Of a stretch of 28,253 nucleotides of DNA, positions 1 through 15,100 are shown in pieces; position 1 is the stretch's first letter, and every line of letters begins with the position of its first letter. The stretch covers positions 1 through 28,253 of IMG/VR virus record IMGVR_UViG_3300042924_003653; one strand, written 5' to 3'. The translations under genes and the position numbers were made by a program. Below the pieces are notes generated by a model. That model worked only from the letters and a program-made list of their open reading frames with translations. It had not been told where the DNA came from and did not search any database. The stretch comes from a virus.

Positions 1-1
1 A

Positions 2-124
2 GTTGAAGGTTTCTTGAATGCCGAAAAAGTGCTTTCTAGGGATCCGTTAGATTTTGATGACGCTAATAAGAATCGGATTGATGACCGGCTTGAGCCGAAA
101 TCCGAGATCACACCCCAAAATTAA
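2..124 (+). CDS. 3' end of an unrecognised protein (partial)
   Basis: The window opens inside a reading frame that runs 40 codons to a TAA stop at 122-124. The visible C-terminus is charged, rich in Asp, Asn, Lys and Arg, and contains the stretch DPLDFDDANKNRIDDRLEP. This looks like a soluble protein end rather than random translation, and no other frame here is open. Forty residues are too few to assign a family. It lies on the same strand as everything downstream and is followed by a terminator-like stem-loop, so it is probably the last gene of the preceding operon. Confidence 0.55.
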   Translation, partial: VEGFLNAEKVLSRDPLDFDDANKNRIDDRLEPKSEITPQN

Positions 125-136
125 AATCAACGCTAA

Positions 137-151
137 GGCCTCTGGGAGGCC
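137..151. repeat. Short perfect hairpin GGCCTC-TGG-GAGGCC
   Basis: A 6-bp GC-rich perfect inverted repeat with a 3-nt loop lies 12 nt after the stop of the upstream partial gene. No T-run follows it directly. It may act together with the larger stem-loop at 156-213 at the end of the upstream transcript. Confidence 0.4.
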
Positions 152-155
152 GTAT

Positions 156-213
156 AAATGATCTGAATTAGCAAATAGGGTGGTGTATCCATTTGGCATA
201 TCGGATCATTTTT
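156..213 (+). terminator. Two-tier stem-loop ending in five T
   Basis: AAATGATCTGA (156-166) pairs with TCGGATCATTT (201-211), 11 pairs if one G-U pair is allowed in RNA. Inside it CAAAT (172-176) pairs with ATTTG (191-195), and G171 can pair with C197. The 3' arm runs into TTTTT (209-213). It lies 31 nt after the stop of the preceding partial gene and upstream of the next promoter region, as expected for an intrinsic terminator. The lower stem is AT-rich and weak, so a recombination or regulatory role is also possible. Confidence 0.4.
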
Positions 214-375
214 CAGGGATAACTATCTACTACAAATCTAGTTTGATCTTTGTTATTAAGCATTTGTAGAAGCTAGTGTTAAATTGATATTTTAGTACCC
301 GATAGCAACCCTTCTTTCCCCCTTGCATCCCCCTATCATCTGAAACTTAAATATAACTAGCTTACTTATGGGTTA

Positions 376-385
376 TGTTATAACA
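376..385. promoter_or_regulatory. Perfect palindrome TGTTATAACA (operator-like)
   Basis: A 10-bp perfect palindrome built from the half-site TGTTA lies about 110 nt upstream of the first downstream gene. The same half-site recurs, arranged the other way round, in the palindrome at 437-450. Two related dyads near a promoter fit a dimeric repressor, but no regulator is encoded in view except the recombinase. Confidence 0.3.
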
Positions 386-425
386 GGAAATCTATCTTTA
401 ATACTGTATGATTAAGTGTAACCTT

Positions 426-454
426 TATACAGGTTGTAACATATATGTTATACT
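426..454 (+). promoter_or_regulatory. Candidate sigma-70 promoter
   Basis: TATACT (449-454) is a good -10 match, with a poor -35 match TATACA (426-431) 17 nt upstream. Transcription would begin near 461 and give a leader of about 33 nt before the ATG at 494. The poor -35 and the overlapping palindrome suggest regulated use. It is the only promoter-like site I see upstream of the long run of + strand genes. Confidence 0.35.
437..450. promoter_or_regulatory. Perfect palindrome TAACATATATGTTA over a possible -10
   Basis: This 14-bp perfect palindrome overlaps the candidate -10 box TATACT (449-454). A further dyad AACCT-6 nt-AGGTT (420-435) lies immediately upstream, where a -35 would be. A protein bound here would cover the promoter, so I read it as a likely operator. 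It could instead be a binding subsite for the serine recombinase encoded just downstream. Confidence 0.35.
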
Positions 455-493
455 CCTGATCTGTAACTATTATGGAGAGATGTAAGAGAACCA

Positions 494-1012
494 ATGTTGA
501 TAGTGAAGGCTATCTGGATACTAACACTAATTTCGTTAGCTATGTTGAATTGGGTTAGTTTTTGCGGACGAAATATGTTTAAGGTTATGAAAATAATAAT
601 ACTGCTAACACTAGCCCTAACCCTCAACGTAACCGCCGGTGATCGGCCGCCACCTTGGCAAGCAATTGAACCCATGCGTAAGTATGGCGGAACCCAGCTG
701 GTCAAAGTCAAGGAACGGGACGCTACCCTTGACGAAGTTAAGGCTTATGGAGATCTTATTCGTCGAGTTCCAGCGCACCTTATTTCCGAGGTGTCTTGCT
801 ACATGCCCGACTACTTTAAGGAGTTCTTTATTAACGGCAAAAAGATGCCCGGCGCACCATTTCCATCGGCCTACTGCTGGGATCGGTTTTATGCCGACGT
901 TAATGCTGGCAAGAAAGTGCCCTTACACATGCGTCACATCGACAACTATAACAAAGCCCAAGAGAAATTTTTTAAGGACAATCCCGGATCCAGACCCGAG
1001 GAGATCAAATGA
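494..1012 (+). CDS. Small exported protein of unknown function
   Basis: From the first ATG the frame gives 172 residues with two hydrophobic N-terminal stretches, residues 2-24 and about 32-48. The second, MKIIILLTLALTLNVTAG, looks like a classical signal peptide with cleavage near residue 48. ATGs at 575 and 587 would leave only this signal, but neither has a good Shine-Dalgarno; GGAGAG at 474-479 lies 14 nt before 494. The mature part is about 120 residues, hydrophilic, with two cysteines that could form a disulfide (in SEVSCYMPDYF and SAYCWDRF). I do not recognise a family. Its stop overlaps the recombinase start (ATGA, 1009-1012), so the two are probably co-translated. An exported protein here could be a lysogenic-conversion or envelope-acting factor, but this is speculation. 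Confidence 0.65.
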   Translation: MLIVKAIWILTLISLAMLNWVSFCGRNMFKVMKIIILLTLALTLNVTAGDRPPPWQAIEPMRKYGGTQLVKVKERDATLDEVKAYGDLIRRVPAHLISEVSCYMPDYFKEFFINGKKMPGAPFPSAYCWDRFYADVNAGKKVPLHMRHIDNYNKAQEKFFKDNPGSRPEEIK

Positions 1013-1635
1013 TTACCCTCAACCCACGCAAAGTAGCCATCTACACCAGGGTTTCTACGGACGATCAAGACACCGCACTGCAGACAACCGAGCTGCTGGA
1101 GTATTCCAAAAAGCGCGGATGGGAACCGATCTTGTTCGAAGATCACGGCATATCTGGAGCCAAGTTTGACCGACCAGCTCTAAACAAAATGATGGATGCC
1201 GTTCGTTCCGGATCCGTGGATCTTGTGCTGACTTGGAAGCTGGATCGGATGGGTAGGTCAACCCAACATCTAGCCGGAATCATTAACGAGCTTTTGGATT
1301 CTGATGTTGGTCTAGTCGTCCCAACCCAAGGTATCGATACGTCCGCCGGCTCGATCAATCCTGCCAGCAAACTGCAGCTTAATGTGCTGGCGGCCGTGGC
1401 TGAGTTCGAGCGCGACTTAATCCGTGAACGAACCAAAGCAGGGATGAAAGCTGCCAAGTCTCGGGGGATCCTGATTGGTCGCAAAACCATTGTGACCGAG
1501 GAACAGCTTGCCCACGCAAAGCTTTTGGTTAGCACAGGCAACGACGTGACCATTCGCCATATCGCTACATCGGTTGGGGTTTCCCGCGGGACCGCTTGGA
1601 GGCTTCGTCGCAAGATCGAGGACGGCTTAGTATGA
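1009..1635 (+). CDS. Small serine recombinase (DNA invertase/resolvase family)
   Basis: The 208-residue protein has all the marks of the Hin/Gin/Tn3 resolvase group. The catalytic block is YTRVST (Ser16, Arg14), followed by GISG and DRPAL near residues 47-58, then KLDRMGRS (Asp79, Arg80, Arg83), and the long E helix AEFERDLIRERTKAG (131-145). A GRK linker leads into a C-terminal helix-turn-helix at about 165-202. Family members cut both strands through a phosphoserine link and rotate the ends, inverting or resolving DNA between short dyad sites. The start has a good Shine-Dalgarno, GAGGAG at 998-1003. It sits two genes upstream of the tail fibre, the usual place for a phage invertase that switches fibre variants. 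I could not find paired inverted crossover sites, so a resolvase role is equally open. Confidence 0.93.
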   Translation: MITLNPRKVAIYTRVSTDDQDTALQTTELLEYSKKRGWEPILFEDHGISGAKFDRPALNKMMDAVRSGSVDLVLTWKLDRMGRSTQHLAGIINELLDSDVGLVVPTQGIDTSAGSINPASKLQLNVLAAVAEFERDLIRERTKAGMKAAKSRGILIGRKTIVTEEQLAHAKLLVSTGNDVTIRHIATSVGVSRGTAWRLRRKIEDGLV

Positions 1636-1796
1636 AGCCCATTGTAGGCGTAAAGATTGTATGCAAAACGCCAGTACCAAGAGGGGAACGCGTGGTTCAT
1701 CATCATCCGCTTTTAGGATGGTTGCGAATTGTTTGGCTTCAGCACCAGCACCGGATCCCAGTATTTCCAAAGTGGAAATGGAAAGGCAGGAACTAA
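1632..1796 (+). CDS. Small basic ORF (54 residues), unknown
   Basis: The ATG overlaps the recombinase stop in the arrangement ATGA (1632-1635), and GAGGA (1618-1622) lies 9 nt upstream, so translational coupling is likely. The product is basic and rich in Val, His, Trp and Pro, with HHH near residue 23 and the tail PKWKWKGRN. No family is recognised. Its overlap and ribosome binding site support it; its small size and odd composition weaken the case. The stop codon begins the direct repeat TAAGCGGCACAC also seen after the terminase. Confidence 0.45.
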   Translation: MKPIVGVKIVCKTPVPRGERVVHHHPLLGWLRIVWLQHQHRIPVFPKWKWKGRN

Positions 1797-1829
1797 GCGG
1801 CACACTGCAAGGTTGAGGGTTGGCTTGGA

Positions 1830-4547
1830 TTGGCAAGCGTACAAATTTGCAACGTGCCAGAACTGCCATTCATCGACCCAGCCGCTCAACTGCCAGACGA
1901 CGGAGCATCGCTTTTGTCTGCAAAGGAAGACAAGGCGAATAAAGGTGTAGCCAACGGCTATGCCCCGCTAGACGTAAACGCAAAGGTTCCAGTAGCCAAC
2001 CTCCCAGACCAAGCATCACTAGACGCAGAGGTTGATGCCAAAATCACAACTCACAACTCTGCCACTACCTCAGTCCACGGAATTGCAAACACGGCCAATC
2101 TTGTTTTGACCAACGATGCAAGGCTTGCAGATTCTAGGCAACCAACGACTCACACACACAACAACGCTGATCTGCCCGAGCTTGGCGAGGTTCTCGGCCA
2201 GCAGGTAGATACCCTTTATGCTAATGCGCCCCAAAACACTCAAAACAGGTTCACGGCATCCAGAAATAAAAGATGGTCAGTCGAGTTCAGCGGAAGTGGA
2301 ACTATTAATATTTATTTTCCAAGCTCAGGGGTAAGGGCTGGCGATAGGCTGAGATTTGCATTCACTACGCCAGCAGGGGTAACGGCAAGAATTAACCTCA
2401 CCCCAGCGGGTTCTCTGGATGTACCGCCCCTAACTCCATACCGCTGGTCTGGTTACAGCATGATTACTGATGCTGGAATGATATGGAGATCGGATCATGA
2501 ATATACAGCTACCTCGACTTCAGATGGCTCCATGTCATCGAGCGATAAAGCAAAACTAGATGGAGTCGCAAGCGGAGCCGAGGTCAACGTTAATGCAGAT
2601 TGGACTGCCGCCTCTGGCGATGCACAAATCCTTAACAAGCCCAATTCATTTACTCCGTCCGCACACACCCACGCTCCTTCCGAAATTACTGGTACCGCCG
2701 TTGTCACCAATGATTCAAGACTTTCAAACCCAAGAACACCTACGGCCCATAAATCCACTCACGCAACGGGCGGGGCAGATGCCTTAACTCCCTCTGATAT
2801 TGGAGCTTCACCGACTTCTCACTCTCACGATACGGCTACAAGCGGTTCTGCTGGATTTATGTCTGCCTCGGACAAGGCGAAGTTAGACGGCGTAGCCAGC
2901 GGGGCTGGGGTAAGCACAAACGCAGATTGGACTGCCGTCTCTGGTGGTGCCCAAATCCTAAACAAGCCCAATTCATTTGCTCCGACTGCCCACAAATCTT
3001 CACACGCAACTGGTGGGTCAGATGCCTTAACCCCAGCTGATATTGGAGCGCAACCCTTTGGTAGCTACGCTCCCTCAACTGGAATTGCCCCTTCCGCCAT
3101 AACTGGAACAGCGGTTGTAACGGATGATTCACGCTTATCAGATAATAGAACACCGACTTCTCATCCCCACGGAAACATTACCAACGCTGGCGCAGTAGGT
3201 TCAACTGCCAACCTTCCTTTAATAACGACAACCTCTGGCGTTGTGACAACTGGATCGTTTGGAACGACTGCCAATACCTTTGCACAAGGAGATCATGCTC
3301 ACAACAAAGGAGCCTCTAGTAACGCTAATACCGCCATCGGAGCGGTTGCTCTTGAATCTAACACAACTGGGATTCTCAACACCGCCCTCGGGTACCGTGC
3401 CCTTCGAGTAAACACAACAGGGGGTGGGAACACAGCTTTGGGTAGTGACGCACTTAGCGGCAGTAATGGGTACGGGAACACGGCTGCTGGCTCGTCAAGC
3501 CTCTACTCCAATGGTTCTGGGAGCCAAAACACAGCTTTAGGTCTTAGCACACTCCGATCATCGAATAGTGGGAACAACAACACCGCCGTCGGGGCGCAAG
3601 CCCTTTTCAAAAACCTTGCAAGCAATAACACAGCGGTTGGCTTTTCTGCGCTCACAGAAAACACAACAGGCATTGGCAATGTTGCCTTGGGATTTAGTTC
3701 ACTCGCAGGAAATACGACTGCTATAAACAATACCGCCGTGGGGATGAGCGCACTTGCCTCTAACCAAACTGGAGGCAATAACACCGCCATCGGAAAAGAT
3801 GCCCTCTATCTTAATATTGGAAACCGCAATGTCGCTTCTGGCGTGAACAGCCTTTACTCAAATACAACTGGAGGCAACAACACAGCCTTGGGGGTGAACG
3901 CACTTTCCAATAACCAAACCTATTCAAATGCTTCGGGCTTGGGGCAGAACTCTCAAGTTAACGCATCCAATCAAATTCAGTTGGGAGATTCAGCCACTAC
4001 AACTTATGTCTATGGAGTGGTTCAAAATCGTTCTGATGCCCGAGACAAATCGGACATCCGAGATACCGCCTTGGGACTGCAATTTATCAATGCACTTCGT
4101 CCAGTAGATTTCAAATGGGATATGCGTGAGGACTATCGCCCAGCTCCTCCATCCCAAGTTGAAAAGCCCATCGAGATAAAAGAAGACGCAAGCGATGCAG
4201 AAAAAGCCCAATACGAACAAGAGTCACTTGCTTATCAGGCTTACATGGCTCAACACGAGGCATGGCTTGAAAGCGTCAAGCTATCCAACATATCGCATGA
4301 CGGCTCAAAGAAACGAAACAGATTGCATCACGGATTGATAGCGCAAGAAGTAAAGGCAGTTTTGGATTCTAGCGGAGTCGATTTTGGGGGCTTTCAAGAC
4401 CATTCGATTAAAGGTGGCGATGATGTTCTTTCCATCGGCTACTCAGAGCTAATCGCCCCAATGATTAAAGCCATTCAACAGCTTTCCGCAAAAATCAATA
4501 CCCTAGAGACACAACTGGCTAACGGAGCGCGAGGTGATGGCCAATGA
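1830..4547 (+). CDS. Tail fibre with YadA-like repeats and S74 chaperone
   Basis: The 905-residue frame starts at TTG, with GAGGG 10 nt upstream; no in-frame ATG lies nearby. The N-terminus has the phage-fibre linker ANGYAPLDVNAKVPVANLP (41-59), likely near the virion attachment end. Two related modules of about 109 residues begin at 235 and 344 (SSDKAKLDG, NADWT, QILNKPNSF, HATGG, DALTP). Residues about 500-705 hold about twelve repeats, mostly 17 residues long, of the form NTA-x-G-x-x-AL, resembling the YadA-head beta-roll and implying a trimeric shaft. The C-terminus (730-905) is a peptidase S74 intramolecular chaperone: Ser735 and Lys740 in SDARDK form the expected cleavage dyad, followed by HHGLIAQEV and an end helix suited to trimer assembly. 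Family members fold the trimer and then cut themselves off. The gene lacks the GGATCC sites common elsewhere, hinting at separate origin. Confidence 0.92.
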   Translation: MASVQICNVPELPFIDPAAQLPDDGASLLSAKEDKANKGVANGYAPLDVNAKVPVANLPDQASLDAEVDAKITTHNSATTSVHGIANTANLVLTNDARLADSRQPTTHTHNNADLPELGEVLGQQVDTLYANAPQNTQNRFTASRNKRWSVEFSGSGTINIYFPSSGVRAGDRLRFAFTTPAGVTARINLTPAGSLDVPPLTPYRWSGYSMITDAGMIWRSDHEYTATSTSDGSMSSSDKAKLDGVASGAEVNVNADWTAASGDAQILNKPNSFTPSAHTHAPSEITGTAVVTNDSRLSNPRTPTAHKSTHATGGADALTPSDIGASPTSHSHDTATSGSAGFMSASDKAKLDGVASGAGVSTNADWTAVSGGAQILNKPNSFAPTAHKSSHATGGSDALTPADIGAQPFGSYAPSTGIAPSAITGTAVVTDDSRLSDNRTPTSHPHGNITNAGAVGSTANLPLITTTSGVVTTGSFGTTANTFAQGDHAHNKGASSNANTAIGAVALESNTTGILNTALGYRALRVNTTGGGNTALGSDALSGSNGYGNTAAGSSSLYSNGSGSQNTALGLSTLRSSNSGNNNTAVGAQALFKNLASNNTAVGFSALTENTTGIGNVALGFSSLAGNTTAINNTAVGMSALASNQTGGNNTAIGKDALYLNIGNRNVASGVNSLYSNTTGGNNTALGVNALSNNQTYSNASGLGQNSQVNASNQIQLGDSATTTYVYGVVQNRSDARDKSDIRDTALGLQFINALRPVDFKWDMREDYRPAPPSQVEKPIEIKEDASDAEKAQYEQESLAYQAYMAQHEAWLESVKLSNISHDGSKKRNRLHHGLIAQEVKAVLDSSGVDFGGFQDHSIKGGDDVLSIGYSELIAPMIKAIQQLSAKINTLETQLANGARGDGQ
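3327..3940 (+). repeat. In-gene tandem repeats, mostly 51 nt, in the fibre shaft
   Basis: About twelve degenerate units, mostly 51 nt with some shorter, encode NTA-x-G-x-x-AL followed by NTTG-like turns. The unit length stays a multiple of three, so copy number can change without breaking the frame. Such arrays can expand or contract by recombination and so vary fibre length. The similarity is clearer in protein than in DNA, so the array is not very recent. Confidence 0.8.
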
Positions 4548-4792
4548 GCAACCGAGAGGATCAATGCATAAAAGCATTACAGTACCTTTGGGACGAGGGT
4601 TTTTTGCGGTTATGGGAGGAGAACGGCGAGGCAAAGCTTGCCCTTACAACCGAGCTATCTGAGGTGCATGACGCAATTAAGGTGAAGTTTAGGCGTAAGG
4701 CCGATCCGGCGGACTGGTGGAAGAATGAAAAAACAATTTCAGAACTAAAAACTAAATCGACAGATTCCGCCGATTGGCGGGAAAAGTCATAA
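4544..4792 (+). CDS. Small acidic/basic mixed ORF (82 residues), unknown
   Basis: The start overlaps the fibre stop (ATGA, 4544-4547) and is preceded by a near-perfect Shine-Dalgarno, GAGGTGA (4531-4537), 6 nt away. The product is charged and helical in look, with WDEGFLRLWEE near the N-terminus and DWWKNEKTISELK near the C-terminus. Position after a fibre gene is often held by fibre-assembly or small virion proteins, but I see no diagnostic motif. The strong ribosome site makes it a credible gene. Confidence 0.65.
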   Translation: MSNREDQCIKALQYLWDEGFLRLWEENGEAKLALTTELSEVHDAIKVKFRRKADPADWWKNEKTISELKTKSTDSADWREKS

Positions 4793-4809
4793 CCAAGGAG
4801 AAAACATAT

Positions 4810-5091
4810 ATGTCAACACAAGTAAAAGATCAAACCATTGAAGGAGTCGCAAAAGACATCAGCCTGTCCTTGGGGCAAGGCGGAGCAGTCTATGTGGCCG
4901 ACACAACCCAAACCGACGGAGCCTTCGGAGCAATCCAAGCGGTAGCTGATACAGTCTTTTCAGCCCTAGTAGCCGGTAACTGGACAGGAACTACTGCCAG
5001 CTTGCCCCTGCCCGCTGGAGCTACCATCTTTGGTAACTTCACATCCTTTACGCTGACCAGCGGAAAAGTAGTCGCATACAGGAATGTCTAA
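4810..5091 (+). CDS. Small beta-rich phage protein (93 residues), possible virion component
   Basis: I start at the ATG at 4810 because AAGGAG (4795-4800) lies 9 nt upstream; an earlier in-frame start at 4774 has none. The product is rich in Gly, Ala, Thr and Val and ends in GNFTSFTLTSGKVVAYRNV. That C-terminus resembles small proteins found beside structural genes in many environmental phages, probably virion-associated, though I cannot name a role. It is followed without a gap by the next gene. Confidence 0.6.
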   Translation: MSTQVKDQTIEGVAKDISLSLGQGGAVYVADTTQTDGAFGAIQAVADTVFSALVAGNWTGTTASLPLPAGATIFGNFTSFTLTSGKVVAYRNV

Positions 5092-5415
5092 ATGAAGCTG
5101 GGTCTCGGGCTGTCGTTAGATAATCGAATTAAGACTGCCCCTGCAAGCCCGTGTCCAGACGCTACGGCGCTGGTCTTAATGACTGGCGAAAACGCAATAT
5201 GGTTTCATGGCCCACGCACTCTTACACCTATTGGATACGCCCCATACGGATTCGAGACCTACCAATATGGCGATGAGGTTGTGCGATATGACGGTTCTGC
5301 ATGGATATACGAGAACAATGGAGGCATTGGTGAAATTGTAAGAGTGTACAGCAACCAGCCGCGGCCTTGGCTGGTTACTTGGCCAGACTTCACAGCCACG
5401 AAGGTTTGTCCGTAA
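5092..5415 (+). CDS. Small unrecognised protein (107 residues)
   Basis: The ATG follows the preceding TAA directly, with AGGA 8 nt upstream, so translation is probably coupled. The product is aromatic-rich with YGFETYQYGDEVVRYDG and SAWIYENNG near the middle, a pattern typical of small beta-sheet proteins. No signal peptide, membrane segment or known motif is seen. Its place in the fibre-to-terminase cluster suggests a minor structural or assembly role. Confidence 0.55.
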   Translation: MKLGLGLSLDNRIKTAPASPCPDATALVLMTGENAIWFHGPRTLTPIGYAPYGFETYQYGDEVVRYDGSAWIYENNGGIGEIVRVYSNQPRPWLVTWPDFTATKVCP

Positions 5416-5558
5416 TGAAAAAGAACAAGCCTAAGAGTCTTTCGGAAAAACGTCGGGAAAACAAATTCGGAGAGTGGAAAACAGCCACCTTTGGATCTGG
5501 TAAAGGCACCGAAGTCTACTGGTCATGGCCAAAGCAAAAGTCGAAGAAAAGGAATTAA
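5415..5558 (+). CDS. Very small basic ORF (47 residues), unknown
   Basis: The start overlaps the preceding stop by one base (TAATG, 5413-5417) and GAAGG lies 10 nt upstream. The product is very basic, with many Lys and Arg at both ends and a short FGEWKTATFG core, so it could bind nucleic acid. It overlaps the terminase start by 34 nt. Its position just before the large terminase is where a small terminase subunit usually lies, but it is far shorter than known ones. Confidence 0.4.
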   Translation: MKKNKPKSLSEKRRENKFGEWKTATFGSGKGTEVYWSWPKQKSKKRN

Positions 5559-7288
5559 CCCTTGAGGCCGTCGAGGCCATAGCTCGCAAGGACTTTTTAT
5601 CTTGGTGGGAGGGATTCACAAAGATCCTCAACAAAGACGCCAAGTTGGTTAATCCGGTTGCTAACTACTTGCAACGCCGAGTGGCAGAGATTGTTTCTTT
5701 CATGCGGGACAACCAGAAGCCGATTCGGCTTGTTGTGCTGAAGCCACGGCAAATGGGCAGCTCCACTATAACGTCTGCCGTCATAACACATTTTGTTAGA
5801 TCCATGCCAAACGTATCGGCGTGCTTGATTGGAGATGAGCTGGATACATCTCAAAACCTTTTCAATATGGTCAATCGGTATATCGAGAACGACTCGCTGG
5901 ATTGGGGCAGTACCTACAACCCAAGCCGAGGTGAATTCAGTCATGGCTCACGAGTTGTAAAGGAAACGGCAAACGACCCTGGTGCCGGAAGGTCTATGAC
6001 CCTGCAAGCCCTTCTGTGTTCTGAGGTTGCTCATTACCGCAGAGCCGGGGAGAGGTCTGGAGAGAAAATCTTATTGGCCATCCGTAACTGCGTTCCAGCG
6101 AAACCTGATACTATCGTGATCGAGGAGTCCACGCCAAACGGAGCTGGGGGAGCTTTTTACAATACATGGCAGAACGCCGTGGAGTTCGAAGATTTCAAGA
6201 AAGGGCAGACCGGCAATGGCTATGTTCGGGTATTCGCGGCTTGGCACGACTTCGAGGAAAACAGCGAGCCACACGAGAATGACCTTGAGCTGACCTTTCG
6301 AGAGGAGGATCTAAAAAGCCGATTCAATCTAAGCAACGGACAGATCCTATGGAGGCGCAGGGTCTTAAAAGAAAAGTGCGCCGGCGACAGCAAACAGTTT
6401 GACCAGGAGTATCCGAATGATCCGATTACATGCTTCTTAACTTCCGGCCGGCCGAGGTTTGACCAGGATGGAATGATTCACCTAGACCAGCTGGCAAGGA
6501 AAGAGCCTCTCTACGGAGTGCTGGATACGCCGAGCAATTTCACCAAGCCGATCTTTCGGAAAACATCCCAGCAAGAAAGCTGGCTCTATGTGTGGGAGCA
6601 ACCCCAGAGCATGGCCAGATACTTGATTGCGGTGGACGCTATGACCGGAAGCTCGCAAGTAAGCGGGGCGGATCCCGACGCACATGCAGTATTTGTGCTT
6701 AAAGCTGGGTACCACGACGTAACCGACAAATGGGTTCGACACTCGGTTGTAGCGAGGATCCGGCCACCATGCAGGGTCGACATCGATGTATTGGCAGATC
6801 TGGTGGAAAGAATCGCGCTCTATTATGGAGGATGCCTAATCGTTCCAGAGGTCAACGGCCCCGGGCTTGCGCTGATTGAGTTACTAAAGACAGCGAGCCT
6901 AAACATATATCAAAGGGAGATCTTTAATCTTCGGGAGTCAAAGCGATCAAAAGCTCTCGGCTGGCAAACCACCGACAAGACAAGAAGGATGGTTGTCGAA
7001 AACCTTGCGTCCCACATTCGTGACTACAACGAGAAAGAGTTTGGAATCGACGTCTACTGCAAACACGCAGTCTCTGAGTTTAGAAGTTTTGTAATCGCAG
7101 AAAATGGAAGGCCGGAAGCTGCGACTGGGAAGCATGACGACGATGTGCTGGCTATAGCGATTGGACTAGCAACGATTGAGGGGGCAACGCCGTACACCGA
7201 GCCAAAGGCCATCCGTAATCTTCCGCCAGACTTGCAAAAGCTCGTTGATTCGCAGTCAAAAAACCGTTTAGTCACCACCTTCAGTTAA
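5525..7288 (+). CDS. terL: Terminase large subunit (DNA-packaging motor)
   Basis: The 587-residue protein has both terminase domains. In the ATPase half, the P-loop is KPRQMGSST (73-81), Walker B ends at Ser166-Glu167 in LLCSEVAHY, and the coupling motif is STPNG (202-206). In the nuclease half, acidic residues sit where the RNase H-like fold places metal ligands: Asp371 in IAVDAMTG, Glu442 in VPEVNGPG, and Asp538-540 in KHDDDVLAIAI. The enzyme pumps DNA into the prohead through the portal and cuts the concatemer. The length is normal for the family and no key residue is missing. The start at 5525 has only a weak ribosome site and overlaps the preceding ORF. No convincing small subunit is visible nearby. 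The portal gene is unusually far away, beyond the giant gene. Confidence 0.95.
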   Translation: MAKAKVEEKELTLEAVEAIARKDFLSWWEGFTKILNKDAKLVNPVANYLQRRVAEIVSFMRDNQKPIRLVVLKPRQMGSSTITSAVITHFVRSMPNVSACLIGDELDTSQNLFNMVNRYIENDSLDWGSTYNPSRGEFSHGSRVVKETANDPGAGRSMTLQALLCSEVAHYRRAGERSGEKILLAIRNCVPAKPDTIVIEESTPNGAGGAFYNTWQNAVEFEDFKKGQTGNGYVRVFAAWHDFEENSEPHENDLELTFREEDLKSRFNLSNGQILWRRRVLKEKCAGDSKQFDQEYPNDPITCFLTSGRPRFDQDGMIHLDQLARKEPLYGVLDTPSNFTKPIFRKTSQQESWLYVWEQPQSMARYLIAVDAMTGSSQVSGADPDAHAVFVLKAGYHDVTDKWVRHSVVARIRPPCRVDIDVLADLVERIALYYGGCLIVPEVNGPGLALIELLKTASLNIYQREIFNLRESKRSKALGWQTTDKTRRMVVENLASHIRDYNEKEFGIDVYCKHAVSEFRSFVIAENGRPEAATGKHDDDVLAIAIGLATIEGATPYTEPKAIRNLPPDLQKLVDSQSKNRLVTTFS

Positions 7289-7345
7289 GCGGCACACAGC
7301 TACAGAAGTAGTTGTCCCGCATCTGCGCAGGGCAAGATTAGTGGG
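7289..7345. other. Short gap after terminase beginning with a repeated 12-mer
   Basis: The 57-nt gap starts in TAAGCGGCACAC (7286-7297), identical to 1794-1805, where it also begins at a stop codon. The next bases are also similar (nGCnA). No promoter or terminator is clear. Confidence 0.4.
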
Positions 7346-7564
7346 ATGGACTCCTACAAATCAGCAAAATATGTCGGGCCTGCCCCGAAAAAACAAAAGC
7401 CTAAGTTCGATGTGGACACGCGGTTTGCTCAAGACATGCAACCCATGGTTCATCACAACGCCGGCGAAACAGAATATAACAAGCCAGCAAAAACAAAAGC
7501 TGCTCGATCCAAAATGGCTGACAAGCCGCCCAAGATCAGCCCTCGGAAAGCCTACCAAGACTAA
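7346..7564 (+). CDS. Small basic protein (72 residues), unknown
   Basis: The product is hydrophilic and Lys/Pro-rich, with repeated Lys-Pro-Lys and Lys-Ala patterns (PAPKKQKPKF, NKPAKTKAAR), and is predicted to be largely disordered. It has no obvious Shine-Dalgarno, and an overlapping frame (7341-7637) is also open, but this frame has the more protein-like composition and ends with a one-base overlap (TAATG) onto the next gene. Function unknown. Confidence 0.55.
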   Translation: MDSYKSAKYVGPAPKKQKPKFDVDTRFAQDMQPMVHHNAGETEYNKPAKTKAARSKMADKPPKISPRKAYQD

Positions 7565-9060
7565 TGGCTATTACGCCTATCGCTCAGCCAGAGGCAATGC
7601 GACGGATCGGCGGAGGACGCGGATCTGGAGGCGATGACTTTGCTGGCCTAGGTGGATCTTTTGCCGGACCCGGATCCGAGTTTACGGCTTCGTATTTGCA
7701 GAACCGCATTTCAGGCATGAGTCGGGCAACGGTAAGTCCGCGAGTTAATCAAAGGCGTGCAATGGCATCTCCGGAGTTTGCTTTAGCCAAGACTCTTGGG
7801 ATTAGCACTCCCTACAACAGCGGTGGGAATCAAGTGGACGTTCAGGCCGCCAGACAAAACTTATCCTCTCCTTATGCGAGCAGGATGGAGCGCGAGGCAT
7901 CTCGAGATCGTTTGGCTAGTTTTAACGAAAGGGCGGCAGCGGCTCCAAGAAACCCTGTGATGGCTGTCGCTGGACTCGCGGCTCCTGGTGACGCCATTCA
8001 GGCGGACGAATACGCAGGGCCGACCGGATCGCAGAGCGCGTTTGATTCTATTCAAGAAAGGTTCGGTAAGCCCCAGCAAAAGATTGCGCCGGTTTCTACA
8101 ACCCCGGGGGCTACCGGCGGAGGCGCACCGCAACCAACTCAAGGCGCTCCTTCTGGCGATCAAGCCGCGGTTCCAATGAGTCCGCAAGCGGCCAGAGATG
8201 CGACTAAAGCTCCAATTGGGGCGGAACTTCCGGCAACTATCGGAGAGCCAGAAAGCCGAAGGACTCCAACACAGGAAACCACCAAGGGCCCAAGGTTAGA
8301 TACCTACCGAGGACCGACCCCTACTGGTAACGCCGGCACGTTCAAGGGCGGGCAAGAAGCAAGAGCGGCCGCAGACGCAAGCCGAGCTGGAGCAATGTCA
8401 CCTCAGGCGCAGATGCAGGGAGCTAATGCTTACCGCAAGCAACAAGGGATGGATGAAGTGGATTTCGCGGGGCAAGAACCGAAGTATGACCAAGCCGGGA
8501 TTAACGAAACCAACGCAAGGCAGAGTGCGGCTGTCGAAGGGATGTCTGGGACGCGAGATGCAGAGAAAAAGATGGCTTACGCTGAAGAGCGAAACAAGGC
8601 TCAGTCCGATAGAGAGGTAATCAAGAAGGGCTTTAACGATCAGTCCGAGATGTTGGCAAGCAAGCAGGCGGCAAACGAGAGCATGTTTGGTAATCCTTAC
8701 GGCCCAGACGGCGGGGAGTCGTTCCGACAGAAAGAGAAAGCTCCGGAACTCGCCCCATTGGGCGGATACGATGAGAAAATCGTTTCTGGAGCTAGGGGCG
8801 GGAATCCCGACGCCAAAAGAGGTGAGGCGGGATATATGGAGAAAGAAACTGTCGCTGTCGGCCCGATGACCAATAAGCCAGCAAGCTCGCAAGCGGAGTA
8901 CGACCAGAGGAGCAAGGCATTCGCTGACGCTGGAGAAAAGCAGAAGCAAGATAACGCCGACGCGGCGATGCGGAAGAAGCAAGCTGGACAACAAAAGAAT
9001 GTAGATGAACTAAACAAGAAGTACGCCGGCCGGGATCCAATCCCAAGGAGAACGGCGTGA
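7564..9060 (+). CDS. Low-complexity 498-residue protein, probable virion-associated
   Basis: The start overlaps the previous stop (TAATG, 7562-7566). The sequence is rich in Ala, Gly, Gln, Pro and charged residues with almost no hydrophobic core, so most of it should be disordered or helical. Gly-rich stretches occur near the N-terminus (GGGRGSGG), Pro/Thr/Gln-rich ones at about 175-265, and a Lys/Glu/Gln-rich helical part over the last 200 residues. There is no signal peptide or catalytic motif. It shares this style with the first 550 residues of the giant gene downstream, which suggests two related linker-like or internal virion proteins. A scaffold or ejection-protein role would suit its place between terminase and portal, but I cannot prove either. 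Confidence 0.75.
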   Translation: MAITPIAQPEAMRRIGGGRGSGGDDFAGLGGSFAGPGSEFTASYLQNRISGMSRATVSPRVNQRRAMASPEFALAKTLGISTPYNSGGNQVDVQAARQNLSSPYASRMEREASRDRLASFNERAAAAPRNPVMAVAGLAAPGDAIQADEYAGPTGSQSAFDSIQERFGKPQQKIAPVSTTPGATGGGAPQPTQGAPSGDQAAVPMSPQAARDATKAPIGAELPATIGEPESRRTPTQETTKGPRLDTYRGPTPTGNAGTFKGGQEARAAADASRAGAMSPQAQMQGANAYRKQQGMDEVDFAGQEPKYDQAGINETNARQSAAVEGMSGTRDAEKKMAYAEERNKAQSDREVIKKGFNDQSEMLASKQAANESMFGNPYGPDGGESFRQKEKAPELAPLGGYDEKIVSGARGGNPDAKRGEAGYMEKETVAVGPMTNKPASSQAEYDQRSKAFADAGEKQKQDNADAAMRKKQAGQQKNVDELNKKYAGRDPIPRRTA

Positions 9061-9118
9061 ACTGGGGATTAGGATCCGCATCCCAAGCGGCCCTGGCGTA
9101 AGCCTGCGGTAATTCAGA
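9061..9118. other. Short gap before the giant gene
   Basis: A 58-nt spacer with no recognisable promoter or terminator and only a weak ribosome binding site (GCGG at about 9105-9108) before the ATG at 9119. Confidence 0.4.
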
Positions 9119-12100
9119 ATGTCCTTACCCGATTTTGGTGGATCTGGAATTGACGGCAAGCCAGAGGATAACTTTGGAGGGCCAGAGCCAGAGTACGTGC
9201 CAAGGACAAGAGGCGAGGCTAGGGCGGTCGAGCAAGAGCAGAGGGGGAAGATTAAGGAAGCCACGCAGGCTTATAATTACGGGTCAGAACAAGCTCTTGA
9301 AGAAGCTGGAATTGAGTACAAGAAAGACGAGCAAGGTTTTGTTCAGCCCCGCTATGCGCCAAGCAATGAGTTTGGGAGAACTGTTGAGTTTGGGACTTCG
9401 GAGTTCCGGGATCCCATTACTGAAGAAACAAGACAGATTGATAAAACCGGAAAAGTTAAGCCAAAGAAACGACAGAATGTAACGTATAAGTCTGGCGACG
9501 CGAACAACCCAAATTTCCCAGATCCGTCTAGGATATACAGAGTATATTCACGCGAACAGGATGCTGGAGTTGCGGATGCCAACCAACCATTTGCAGCAAC
9601 CAAGGCAGAGGACATTGGGAGTGCTTTCGACTTGCAGGGAGTTTCGGATCAGGGCATTTCATCGCTGGCCAAGGAGACCGTAAGGAAGAATAGGCAATAC
9701 GAGCTTGGTTCGGCCAAGTCGGTACTAGACGCAAGAGGCCAGCAGTTGGATGTCGAATCAGAGACACTCAAATCCCAGATCGACACCCTTAATCAAACGC
9801 CGATTCCAGACTGGCAACCCGATGGCGACAAGATGGATCCAGCCATTGCGTCCGAGGTTGGAGGAAAGGCTGACGCAAAATCCCGACAAGATGCAGCAGC
9901 AAGAATTGGGATGTCTAGGGATCAGAAAATTGCAGATTTCAGCTCACAGCTGGCCGAAAAGAATAAGGAAAGAATCCGCAATCGCGCCCTTCAGGTTGAG
10001 CTTCAGTCCCAGATGTCGCTGGATGAGGGCGAATCGATTTACGACAACCGAGTTCAACAGCTTCTTAAGAATGGGGCGAAACAAGAGGATATTGATAAGG
10101 ATCCGCTTATCGGAGCAATCCGAGAGGGGCTGACAAACATTCAGAAGCCTGTTCTGCCTTTGTCGGAGGTTTTCAAGGATCCAGCATTAACCCCGCAGGC
10201 CATCTATGAAACAAGGGCATCCCAACGCGAAAAGGGCAGAATTGAGGCCGAGGGAAGACTTGCTAAAGAAAAGGCCACAGAATTTCTAAAGCCATTCATT
10301 GAGCAAGCGGCCGACACATCCATCAGCTACACGACTCTGGCTGGACGCAGAAACAGGCTTTCATCGGTCTACAACAAGCTTTTGGATGATGCCGATGCGT
10401 CCGACGCGAAGCAAAAGGGAACCGGATTAAACCTTAGAGCGCAAGCGGCTGGGTACGCTGAGGCAATCGGAGTTCTGGATGACCAGCTTAGCAAAATTGG
10501 CAAGCAAGCCACGGTTGCCGAGCAAAGCGCAAAAATCCAAGGCGAGTTTGCTAAAGAAAACGAAAAGAGAGTTCAGCAAGAATTGCAGGGAAGGCTTACA
10601 AAGCTTGAGCAAGAAACAAAGCAAAGGGTTGAAAAACTAAAGCAACGCCGAGGACTAGAGGATGGAACATTTATGGGGCCGCCGGCTCCTGGTGATGTGC
10701 CTCCGGCCACACCAACGCAAGGGACGCCACCAACTCAGCCCACGACGCCTCAACCACAGCCTGAAAGCCCGACAAGCTGGTTCCAAGGCGGTCTTAACAA
10801 CCTATTCAGCAAAGACACGATGCGACAAGCGGCTCGAGGATACTTCGAGCTGAATCAGAAGTTTGCTTCTGGTATTTACCTTTCCGCTGCAAACGCATTA
10901 AGACTTCGCGGAAAAGAAGTGCCGATATCGGGAGGTAAGCTCAAGACAGCTGGGGCTGGCTTTGTTGACGCCATGACTACATCGCCATCTATGCCCGCCA
11001 AAGTTATGGCGGCTCTAAGCATGGTTGATAGGCAGTTTGGCGGGAAACTTCACAACAAGGCGGCAAAGTTCTTTGAGGAATCCGCAACCGCAGCCAAAGA
11101 GAACGAGACGGCAATCCGTGAAGAAAAGTTCCTTGGACTCGAGCCAGTAAGCCCAGAGTGGCGCGAAAGCGATGTCGGCCAAGTGGTCAAGTCCCTGACA
11201 GAGCTTCCGTTTTACATTGGTACAACAATGATCAATCCGGCTGTCGGATTTATTGCAACATTCGGATCCTCTTACGATGAGGCCATTCAGAACCAGCTAA
11301 ATGCTGGCGTTAAAAACCCAGACCACGTTACGGCTTTAGCTGAAGCAATTCCTGTCGCTGCATTTGAGCAACTTGGAAACATGGTGGAGCTGGGACTTGC
11401 TAAAGCTCTTGGCAAAAAGTTCATTCAAAGCCTTGAGAGCATGACTGCCAGAAGCCTTCGAGGGCTTTTTGCAAGTGCAGCCATGAAGATCGGTGGTGGC
11501 GCAATAACCGAAGGAGGGGAGGAAGGCGTACAGCAATTTTGGTCAAACATGATTGCCAAGTATATCGGCAAATTTGATCCCAATAGGCCGCTAGATAAAG
11601 ACGTTTGGAAGAGCGTTAAAGTTGCGATGTGGGCTGGTGGAGCCGGAGTTACCGCAATGGGAGGCGGATCTGTTGCCCTGACAGGCGCACAGAATTACCT
11701 CAACGAGCGTGGCCTCAAGAAGCAAGCCGACGAGATGAAGGCGGCCACAGAGGATATTCCCATGAACGGATGGGAGGACTGGGCAAATAGGCTTCCAGAG
11801 CAAGTTCTGGATCCTGGCTTAGCCGAAAGCTTTGGCGAAATCGGTGCCGATCTTGACGAACAACAAGGCAAGTTCTTGGTTGATTTGGCTGACAGCATTA
11901 AAGGTGCGCCATTCAGAAGATTGCTAGATCTTGGCAAATCAATTGACGAAAGCCTCATTCAACCCCCTGCGCTCCAGAGTCGAGCGGCCGGGATCCTGAC
12001 CGGAGCTAGAAATGAGCAATTGAAGGGCGAGGCAAATCTATATGCCGAAAGGGCTAACCTTGCCGCCCTTATGCAGAGCGAGGCGCAACTTCGCCTGCGT

Positions 12101-15100
12101 GTAGCCAGAGAGCTGGGAGAGCTTCCAACCGACCCCGTGGACGGCGGGCTGGATCAGCAAGCGGCCGGGCTTATCGCGGCCAAGGTTCTGTTTGGATCTA
12201 GCGGAGTAACCCAAGAGGAGCTGAAGGCCAAGTACCGAGGGATGCCAATCATCCAGACCGATTCTAACGGCATCCAAGTGCCATCAGAGTTTGTTAAGCA
12301 GGACATATTCTCAAAAGCACCAACCATGTCCGAACAGCTCAAGGGGTTCTTGTCGCGAGTTAATCAGGCAATGGCAAACCAGACGGACGCTGGAGGTACT
12401 GGGGCAGAACCGCCAGAGCCACCGAAGCCCGAGCAAGAGCCAACCGGAAAGCCTAGGCAAGTTGATCAAGCAAACCTAAAGACACCCCGCCAGATTGCGG
12501 AGGCCAGCGCAAGGACAGGATCCCCAGCTTTAATGGCAAGACTTGAAGGCAAGACTCCGGACGAGAGATGGGCATCGGCAGAATCAAAGATCAAAAACCT
12601 AGTCACCGCAATTGGATCTAAGGGGCTGGATGTAAGGTTCGTGTCCGATGGGGCAGCATCTTCCGTAGCCTTTGAGGCAGACAATAAAACTCTCCGTATC
12701 AGCCTAAACAAACAGGCTTTCATGGATATGGAGAACACGGATCCAGAGGCAAACAACCGGTATGTCAGAGAGGAGATAGCCCACCTTGGGGATATTGCAG
12801 AGGGGGCATTAGACGCAAAAAGGCAGGGCAAGGATAACTACCGCCAGCATTGGGAACAGGAACGCGCGACCATGCTTTCAAGAATCTTTACTGTCGCAAA
12901 GCAAGACAAGGCAGTTGAAGAATCGGTGGTCGCGGCCGCAAATCTTTATCTTGAGAACGTGTTTAGCAAGCCAATGACAGATGACGGTGGAAACACGTTT
13001 TCATCAACTAGCGCACCCATGTCTGCCACGATGGATGCCCTCATGGGTGGCGAAGTAGTGCCCCAGTTTAAGACAGTTGCGGATGTTCAGAAGTACTTAA
13101 TCCGAAATGGAATGTCTGGCGAGAAGGGCGTGCGTGCGATGCCCCTCTTTATGGCCGAGATGCTTCGAATGCTTAAGACGTATGGGCAACCCCAAACAGA
13201 ATCCAGAAACTTTCTACGCACGGCTGCGAAAACAACCGGCGGATCGCGAACCATTATAAAGGTAATTTCCGATTACCTTCGCAAGGTATATAAAGCACTG
13301 TTTTCGATTAAGGATAGCCTGGTCAAAGCCGACCCTCAGTTGGCTGAAGATTTAAGCAATCTGCTGTCTGAGATAGACGATGTTCTCTCTGATTCGCCCA
13401 GCCAACCACGGCCAGAAGTGGCTCAACGTAGCCCAAATGTGCCACAAGCCCCAGAGGCTAAGCCCCGCGCTCCGCCAGAAACAGGAGGTGAAAATGTCCC
13501 GCAAGCCCCAGAAACGCCAGAAATTGTCCCGCCCCAAAATGCAGGTGAACCGCCGGTTATCGGCCAAACTCCTGAAGGGGGTCAAGCAGTTGGAACTATT
13601 GCACCGCCGGCCACAAGGATAGTCCCTCGAGGTCGGATGGTGTCAGTTACCTACGACAAGCTGGGATCTGGAGGAGTTGAATCAGTAACAGAACAAGTCC
13701 AGCTGACAAAAGAGCAGGAAGTGGAGTGGGAAAAGGGCGAGGCAGATTACCGGCAATCAGCGGAGATGGCGAAAAGAACAAGAGATCCCGCTATGCGCTC
13801 CAGCCTAATGCAGAGGGCTGGGTATGAGTGGGCAAAAAGAAAAAGGGAAATAACTGGGCGACTTCATTACAAGGAACAAAGAGAGAAGGAAGCTCGAGAA
13901 AAGAAGAACTACCTTGGCAAGAAGGTCGGGGTACAAACTGAGGGTGGAGTTTTCGCGGCAACCATTACCGGAAATCCTTTCGGGCGGGTCAAGGTTCGGC
14001 TTGAGGATGGGCAAGAGCTGACGGTTTTGCCGGATCAGCTGACAAGCGCACCCGAGATCGAGCAAGAGCAATCACAAGATCCTACGGCAATTCCGTCCGG
14101 TCAGGTGGTTGACTTCCCGATCAATAAAATCGTTGTTAACGACAAGATCCAGCAGTTTAAGAAGAAGGCCAAGAAGGATTCCGGAGTCGTAAAAGCTCTA
14201 ACCGGAGAATACCAAGCAACTCCGAAGAACCCGATTGTTATCTGGCAAAGGAACGACGGCGTATTTGAGGTGATCACCGGCCGACATCGGTTGGATCTCG
14301 CCAAGCGGAACAATATGACAACTGTTCCCGCCCAAATCGTCAAAGAATCAGAGGGCTGGACGCAAGAGAAAGCTGAAACATTTGATGCCGAAGCAAACAT
14401 CCGAGACGGCCAAGGCGACCTAGAGGACTTTGCTTACTATTTTAGAAAGTCCGGGATCAGCCAGCAAGACGCCGAAGCAAAGGGTCTTTTGCGTGATGAC
14501 GGCAAGGGTAAGGCTGGATTCTTAATCGCTAACGAGGCGACTGAGGACGTTTATAGCGGTGTATTGATGGGGAAAATTGACCCGGGCATGGCATATATTA
14601 TCGCCTCTAGCGCCCCAAGGTCAGCAGGAGCATTAAACGAGGGGATTCAACGGCAAGCTCTAGCTCTGATTACCACCGAAAGAACAAATCAATCAGAGCT
14701 TAAGAACTTCATTGCTGGGATGGTCGCAAAATTTGCTGACCAAGGCCCCTCCGAATCACAAGGGGATCTGTTTGGTGGGGATGACTCGGCTCTTGAATTG
14801 ATGAAACAAAGGGCAAAGAAGGCCGCAAAGAAGCAAAAAGGGCTGAAGGACGAGCTTAACGCACTCCTAAGCTATAAGAAGCTTAGCAGTGGACAGAGAG
14901 CGAAAATTTTAGCTGACAGAGGAATTTCGATTGGGGCCGGCGAAGATGTTGACGGCAGAATCGCAAAGGAAATAACAGATTTGCAGGCTGATCTCGCCTC
15001 TTGGGAGAGGTGGGCTACAGATCCAGCAAAAGTAAGCCAAATCGACCAAATGCCTGATATTAAGGCACAAAGGATCGATATTCAGGCCCAACGAATTGAC

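Follow-up and report, generated by a model that had tools for sequence, protein, structure and literature searches.

The stretch of DNA analysed here (the window) is the entire IMG/VR virus record IMGVR_UViG_3300042924_003653, 28,253 bases in length; because its last gene, which encodes a portal, is cut off at the window end, the record is a fragment. The question raised by this locus is why the hexamer GGATCC, present at 39 sites, is absent between positions 1759 and 6669 (both counts of the original prediction, which our own count confirmed), an interval that carries a tail fibre gene, several small genes, and the first part of the large terminase gene, and whether this whole interval might represent a swapped module, as had been suggested from the letters alone. 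Tail-fibre exchange between related phages is a well-known way to change targets, and the event identified here is of this known kind, a receptor-module exchange, with corrected borders and with the terminase excluded. We assign a probability of roughly 0.86 to the reading that the interval holds an allelic receptor-binding module (the fibre past residue ~100 and the genes o82, o105, and o107; ~2127–5414) that phages with a common backbone exchange among themselves, either whole or piece by piece, with a fibre C-terminus shared with phages of other backbones and with the GGATCC gap as a by-product. Three observations carry this reading, i.e., the borders found in named relatives, the phylogenetic conflict between module and backbone, and the failure to find backbone genes in the neighbourhood of the nearest relatives of the fibre C-terminus; the direction of transfer is one that we infer. 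For an uncultivated phage group, what began as a vague compositional hint is now an exchange module that has been mapped to close borders, and the view that the terminase travelled along with the fibre has been corrected.

Borders of the exchanged segment

A terminase scan yielded 14 relative loci, to which the window was aligned at the nucleotide level; the terminase tree contained three clades, A (which includes the window), B, and C, each supported at 100/100. In the nearest relatives, homology was present on both flanks and was lost in the middle, except for short scattered matches. On the left, homology broke off at 2126 in L006 (94% identity up to the break), 2122 in L007 (93%), 2147 in L008 (82%), 2154 in L011 (72%), and 2104 in L013 (85% to 1894 and 71% past a short break at 1894–1917); in L018, the break was found at 1796 (95%), which is the end of small1 (Table 1), and the fibre N-terminus is replaced as well. 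On the right, homology resumed at 5413 in L018, 5415 in L007, 5416 in L008, and 5421 in L013, such that resumption in the closest relatives coincides with the start of small2; L006, which shares o107, resumed at 5209. As homology is lost after ~2126 (fibre residue ~100) and is back near 5413, we place the exchanged module at ~2127–5414, while relative to L018 the exchanged segment is 1797–5414. Close relatives thus keep the N-terminal anchor of the fibre, with the remainder of the fibre replaced. Two other records, L005 and L017, were 100% identical to the window over both borders; the joins are therefore not an assembly slip of the window record. The terminase was 92–100% identical at the amino acid (aa) level in nine relatives (L005–L013), and those with a readable module carried modules different from that of the window, with the exception of the identical copy in L005.

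Two small conserved genes, both taken from open reading frames (ORFs) below the usual length cut-off, border the exchanged module. Compared to five relatives, small1 showed 93–100% aa identity with many silent changes (dN ≤ 0.045; dS 0.31–0.79), and the copy in L011 showed 65% aa identity; an NCBIfam search with small1 gave no match. For small2, dN was 0–0.074 in L018, L008, L019, L020, and L021, and L009, L011, and L012 carry a version that is just 53–54% identical. small2 occurs across clades, and the version in L024 (clade B) is almost that of L020 (clade A).

Conflict between module genes and backbone

The portal tree (ten rows) contained the same three clades as the terminase tree, supported at 100/100, 100/99, and 100/99, while the module genes conflict with both portal and terminase, as the original prediction had anticipated for an exchange. 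Between clades, identity in the backbone was 68–72% for the terminase and 63–73% for the portal; in the module region, values of up to 98% (o82), 92% (fibre N-terminus), and 88% (o105) were reached. Terminases of the window and L020 are 99% identical, but their o82 products are 38% identical; o82 of L020 is instead 98% identical to that of the clade B loci L025 and L026. Likewise, o105 of the window is 88% identical to that of L193–L195 (terminase 68–69%), and o107 is 86% identical to that of L025 and L027 (clade B) but 68–73% identical to that of L020. A topology test on o82, which used 16 of 21 rows (L018, L016, and L135 were left out for partial terminases, L194 as a near repeat of L193, and L014 as lying outside the three clades) and in which L012 sits on a long branch, rejected the terminase clade A (difference in log likelihood, 103; approximately unbiased (AU) test, p = 0.0005). 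In addition, a fibre stretch of 816 bp is 96.6% identical at the nucleotide level between L011 (clade A) and L029 (clade C), whereas their terminase regions align at 68%. Pairwise identities for the flank genes correlated with those for the terminase (Pearson 0.98 for both portal and recombinase); for the module region, Pearson and Spearman coefficients were 0.15 and 0.22 (fibre N-terminus), 0.24 and 0.08 (o82), 0.07 and −0.07 (o105), and 0.48 and 0.32 (o107, 10 pairs only), respectively. These correlations omit pairs with L018, L014, and L135 and, for the recombinase, also L008. The terminase belongs to the vertically inherited backbone and is not part of the exchange.

These patterns bear directly on the alternative that no exchange took place and that gap and divergence result from a fibre that is vertically inherited, evolves rapidly, and has an unusual protein composition. 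While amino acid content and codons alone bring the expected number of GGATCC sites down to about one, and while tetranucleotide usage of the module is inside the backbone range, fast vertical evolution does not account for module genes that resemble those of distant backbones more than those of near backbones (o82 of L020 and o107 of the window, both closest to clade B), for the fibre shaft shared by L011 and L029, or for the AU test result; we consider this explanation very unlikely.

Relatives of the fibre C-terminus were sought using the last 222 fibre residues as a query; the best 80 of 151 related stretches were kept, two of which were the window's own copies, leaving 78 other loci. Relatives with 57–72% identity were found in phages where the window's backbone was not found. 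No terminase, portal, giant gene, or recombinase was detected in the 78 loci at E up to 1e-4, while a fibre was present in 77 of them and an o105-like match in five. For 22 of these loci, the whole source records, which may be fragments, were searched; none gave a portal, and the terminase had a single remote match (27% identity across 141 residues). As a control, the portal query found seven of 11 records, missing L190, the S74 record L209, and the L007 and L020 fragments. Among deposited phages, the best of the 20 listed of 86 matches were SPO1-like Bacillus phages, with ~40% identity over the second half of the fibre. The C-terminus of the fibre thus appears to be common to phages of other backbones.

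Comparable arrangements have been described. In Klebsiella phage receptor-binding proteins, the N-terminal anchor is kept and the C-terminal specificity part is transferred, as described in the portion of PMC8262889 considered here; that system and the present one share a conserved N-terminal anchor, a variable C-terminus, transfer across groups, and, in some of the proteins, a C-terminal chaperone. In the same portion, specificity follows depolymerase domains and was demonstrated at the bench, whereas the present fibre, known from sequence alone, showed no recognisable enzyme domain. Recent domain shuffling has also been reported in phage receptor-binding proteins, with (in the part of PMC10684548 concerned) near-identical N-termini and non-homologous C-termini in close relatives and with shuffling across taxonomic lines, as observed here; unlike the cases in that part, the block identified here also holds o82, o105, and o107, up to the conserved small gene before the terminase.

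GGATCC sites and composition

Measured between adjacent site starts, the GGATCC gap is 4917, roughly double the second largest (the next two being 2536 and 2481); with 39 uniformly placed points, a maximum gap this long occurred in 2.3% of trials (P = 0.023). About eight sites had been expected in the interval from the average of the remaining window. When proteins were held fixed and synonymous codons were shuffled within each gene, however, the interval was expected to hold 1.07 sites with its own codons (none in 32% of shuffles) and 1.47 sites with window-wide codon usage (none in 22%). In contrast, the giant gene contains 23 sites vs. 9.1 expected, the portal six vs. 1.0, and the window backbone as a whole 37 vs. 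11.5. As the backbone is approximately threefold enriched over synonymous shuffles and the interval merely lacks enrichment, eight was the wrong null; the unusual part is the rest of the window, and the gap taken alone is weak evidence of exchange.

Part of the gap is explained by the terminase. In the window and in L006, L007, L008, and L013, all clade A loci that carry fibres other than that of the window, the terminase gene has GGATCC sites at gene nucleotides 1146 and 1232 only; in the window, these two sites close the gap on its right side. Because this pattern occurs in four relatives with other fibres, the right quarter of the gap is older than the swap, and the gap is made longer by a terminase stretch that is site-free in close relatives as well; the clade A relative G023, which carries another module, has a similar GGATCC gap at 3284–8345. 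The original prediction had drawn the swapped block as the whole interval, terminase included. Such a block would agree with the extent of the gap and with the right junction in L009–L012, which extends to the first terminase codons, but the site pattern shared by four relatives, the near identity of the terminase in relatives with different readable modules, the agreement of portal and terminase trees (both of which give clade A at 100/100), and the ordinary codon usage of the terminase (98% of giant-gene blocks are as far or further) make it extremely improbable. What stood of that proposal is the existence of a swapped module, at ~2127–5414; its borders did not stand, as the first ~100 residues of the fibre are a shared patch and the terminase is backbone.

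The shortage of sites becomes apparent when modules are pooled. In the eight clade A loci that were summed (L009, the ninth such locus and one with only 334 bp of module, is not in the totals), modules contain two GGATCC sites vs. 6.0 expected, while backbones contain 95 vs. 31.4 expected. At the pooled backbone ratio, the modules would be expected to hold 18.2 sites, and two or fewer has a Poisson P of 2.4e-6 (0.0019 at the lowest single backbone ratio), values that are optimistic because backbone sites are inherited and not independent. The module ratio was below that of its own backbone in seven of eight clade A loci. One window's gap could not reveal a swap, while the pooled modules do show a shortage, and this shortage in clade A modules is a symptom of foreign origin. 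Across records, GGATCC density was 0.82–1.38 per kb in six clade A records (window included), 0.32–0.45 in six clade B and C records, 0–0.04 in three S74-bearing phages, and 0.99 in a more distant record (G029).

Compositional claims made for the fibre were largely borne out in direction. Compared to the giant gene, the fibre is poorer in GATC (2.2 vs. 7.0 per kb) and richer in ACA and ACT codons (60 vs. 27 per 1000 codons), which is partly explained by its threonine content (96 vs. 58 per 1000 codons), although these two codons also make up a larger share of threonine codons (0.62 vs. 0.47). A higher A+T content was found as well, but the difference is slight (GC, 0.498 vs. 0.515; GC at third codon positions, 0.437 vs. 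0.531). Of the compositional checks proposed originally, codon usage indicated a shift for the fibre only once its first 99 codons were removed, when its codon distance exceeded that of every giant-gene block; tetranucleotides and whole-fibre codons gave no shift. A general foreign hexamer signature, based on the giant gene's top 10, 20, or 40 hexamers, was tried and dropped: enrichment was 1.15–1.37 in modules, 1.9–2.16 in the rest of the window's backbone, and 1.57–1.79 in clade B and C backbones, while overall hexamer correlations were near each other (0.262 for backbone, 0.223 for modules, and 0.308 for clades B and C). As clade B and C backbones share much of the enrichment and the correlations are close, GGATCC alone was used as a signature. 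Statistics from the window only (maximum gap, tetranucleotides, and codon distance) are too weak to decide on exchange.

A number of observations weigh against the exchange of a receptor module or against evidence used for it. At the right border, L009, L010, L011, and L012 regain nucleotide homology only at 5546–5552, at the terminase start, so that this border is not one fixed point. Spearman coefficients against the terminase were lower than the Pearson values even for the flank genes (0.53 for the recombinase and 0.64 for the portal). The GGATCC deficit of the window alone is not significant, with a probability of 0.18 for no site in the module even at threefold enrichment, and if clade A modules are taken as simply unenriched, two sites vs. 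6.0 expected corresponds to P = 0.06; L008 is an exception among clade A loci, with a module ratio as high as that of its backbone. In six loci of clades B and C, modules (two sites vs. 4.2 expected) and backbones (nine vs. 13.6) did not differ (p = 0.50). Extra terminase sites were found at gene nucleotide 98 in L011 and L010, 421 in L012, and 232 in L016, and the site-free terminase stretch is hence not universal. The codon distance of the whole fibre was not extreme (17% of equal-length giant-gene blocks are as far), and the tetranucleotide correlation of 2127–5413 (0.372) was inside the backbone range (0.294–0.55). Terminase and portal scans of bacterial genomes (two) found no relative or prophage that would name a host. 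Finally, a search for ERF drew a blank in two fragments of clade A and in six records of clades B and C, and RecA was found in none of 10 records.

Enrichment of GGATCC in clade A backbones goes beyond codon and protein content and is accompanied by retention of sites. L009 (73% nucleotide identity) and L013 (83%) share 62% and 76% of GGATCC sites with the window, while the corresponding medians for hexamers with comparable counts were 19% and 43%. In closer relatives, GGATCC exceeded such hexamers only slightly (88% vs. 76% in L008 and 80% vs. 69% in L007). Measured against a codon-by-codon expectation and ranked among hexamers, retention was clear in two of four comparisons, i.e., L009 (9 of 14 sites vs. 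2.6 expected; rank 1 of 51) and L013 (12 of 17 vs. 5.8; rank 2 of 113), and weak in L008 (14 of 17 vs. 10.4; rank 11 of 114) and L007 (13 of 17 vs. 9.0; rank 6 of 73); as the mean z over all hexamers was 0.3–0.6, shared regional conservation accounts for some of the excess. According to the part of PMC4390886 considered, highly iterated palindromes (HIP) of cyanobacteria include GGGATCCC in two Synechococcus; like these, GGATCC is a GATC-centred palindrome that is over-represented and retained above expectation, but, unlike the cyanobacterial HIP of that part, where the word phage is absent, it is a hexamer found in a phage clade at ~1 per kb. A search for methyltransferases of the PF01555 family in 11 phage records found none. 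We tentatively suggest, as a possibility short of even odds, that GGATCC is a HIP-like palindrome maintained in clade A by selection or by a repair or methylation process of the host. If so, newly imported receptor modules would be holes in the motif map and regained sites would date each swap; a palindrome kept in the backbone of one clade and not enriched in receptor modules would make recent imports simple to recognise and would offer a testable link to host DNA modification.

Recombination and neighbouring genes

Exchange of the receptor-binding module may be produced by homologous or annealing recombination during co-infection, which could be seeded by conserved patches at the ends and inside of the module (small1, the fibre N-terminus, shaft repeats, o82, and small2 with the terminase start); recombination of this type fits the positions of the breaks, which vary from pair to pair and fall within or next to conserved coding patches. 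The products would be kept because the recognised host surface changes; judging from the type of gene and from engineered fibres in the portion of PMC8262889 considered, a swap would probably change the recognised host. Of four clade A records, two encode an ERF-type annealing protein (G023, 51858–52232; G031, 8032–8427), and RecT was found in one of 12 records (the more distant G029, 21016–21567). A diversity-generating retroelement was rejected for the lack of a reverse transcriptase (PF00078) in 12 records, which may be fragments (controls were positive in three of 14).

The serine recombinase, for which DNA-invertases are the nearest solved chains, raises the possibility that fibre ends are inverted in place, as by Gin or Hin, and that the differences between relatives represent switched states. 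This enzyme lies directly upstream of the fibre, where it stays in clades A, B, and C, and the longest imperfect inverted pair in 1–9200 (25 nucleotides, 76%; arms 425–449 and 4803–4827) surrounds recombinase and fibre. The top inverted-repeat score in 1–9200 was nevertheless 13, compared to a mean of 12.8 and a maximum of 14.5 in 20 shuffles, and the top score for the whole window was 15, compared to a maximum of 15.5 in five shuffles; a scan with 12-base seeds found no inverted pair in the window. In the recombinase-bearing loci of clades A–C, the same scan gave only inverted matches of 16–18 nucleotides at differing places (in L011, L019, L029, L030, and L031), and alignment to the 14 terminase-bearing relatives contained no inverted match of at least 60 bp. 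The scan for inverted arms can detect such arms, as arms of up to 28–34 nucleotides were found in L034–L036. With no inverted sites above shuffles, inversion by the resident recombinase was rejected, and we regard it as an improbable source of the differences. No second fibre was recognised among the scanned proteins of the fragment window, the whole genomes of relatives being outside this search. A literature search on serine recombinases and fibre transfer found nothing. In L034–L036, distant recombinases (44–45% identity; ~10001–10450) are flanked by a 13-base repeat in four to six identical copies, each of which faces inward (plus strand on the left, minus strand on the right), which are candidate invertible or recombination sites or promoters.

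Table 1. Features of the window in and around the exchanged module
Feature	Coordinates	Strand	Remarks
ORF, 172 aa	494..1012	+	left flank; conserved in nearest relatives
Small serine recombinase, 208 aa, resolvase/invertase type	1009..1635	+	left flank; PF00239 E 2.7e-42; PHROG 125 E 3.6e-54
small1, unlisted 54-aa gene between recombinase and fibre	1632..1796	+	left exchange border in L018
Fibre gene	1830-4547		S74 chaperone close to its end
Fibre N-terminal anchor, ~99 residues	1830..2126	+	common patch; nucleotide homology ends there
Fibre shaft and C-terminus with S74 intramolecular chaperone	2127..4547	+	exchanged; PF13884 E 2.9e-10
o82, small gene	4544..4792	+	in module; two main alleles
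o105	4774..5091	+	in module; probably head of second tail-tip cassette
o107	5092..5415	+	in module; relative of o107 ends 644-aa ORF in L006
small2, unlisted 47-aa gene overlapping terminase start	5415..5558	+	right exchange border in closest relatives
Large terminase	5525..7288	+	right flank; not exchanged, first codons perhaps excepted
498-aa ORF			after terminase, before giant gene
Giant gene, single 5752-aa ORF	9119-26377		Strawberry-notch-type helicase and ParB-like matches
Portal, SU10-like			after giant gene, runs off window end

Among the small genes of the module, the two main alleles of o82 are ~40% identical; one is found in clades A and C and the other in clades A and B. In the predicted fold of o82, residues 11–40 (a putative helix and hairpin) have a mean predicted local distance difference test score (pLDDT) of at least 90, and another helix is predicted next; the predicted structure had no Foldseek match at E ≤ 0.001, and no function was therefore given to o82. 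o105 and o107 resemble the two ends of one second tail-tip protein: in L006, the 644-aa ORF with the o107-like part at its end follows o105, while L018 has both within a single 241-aa ORF.

The product of the giant gene was scanned in three pieces, with few domains recognised in its 5752 aa. It is a polyvalent-protein type gene, outside the main finding; like the polyvalent proteins in the part of PMC5512222 considered, it is very long, combines a Strawberry-notch-type helicase with a ParB-like region, and belongs to a phage with portal and terminase. On the left flank, the 172-aa ORF had no match to any family in library scans and is 99% (partial), 95%, 94%, and 85% identical to its relatives in L018, L020, L019, and L021, respectively. 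To the left of this first gene, positions 1–493 wholly contain no listed ORF of at least 60 aa, and the block 1–1000 has the lowest GC of the window profile (0.414).

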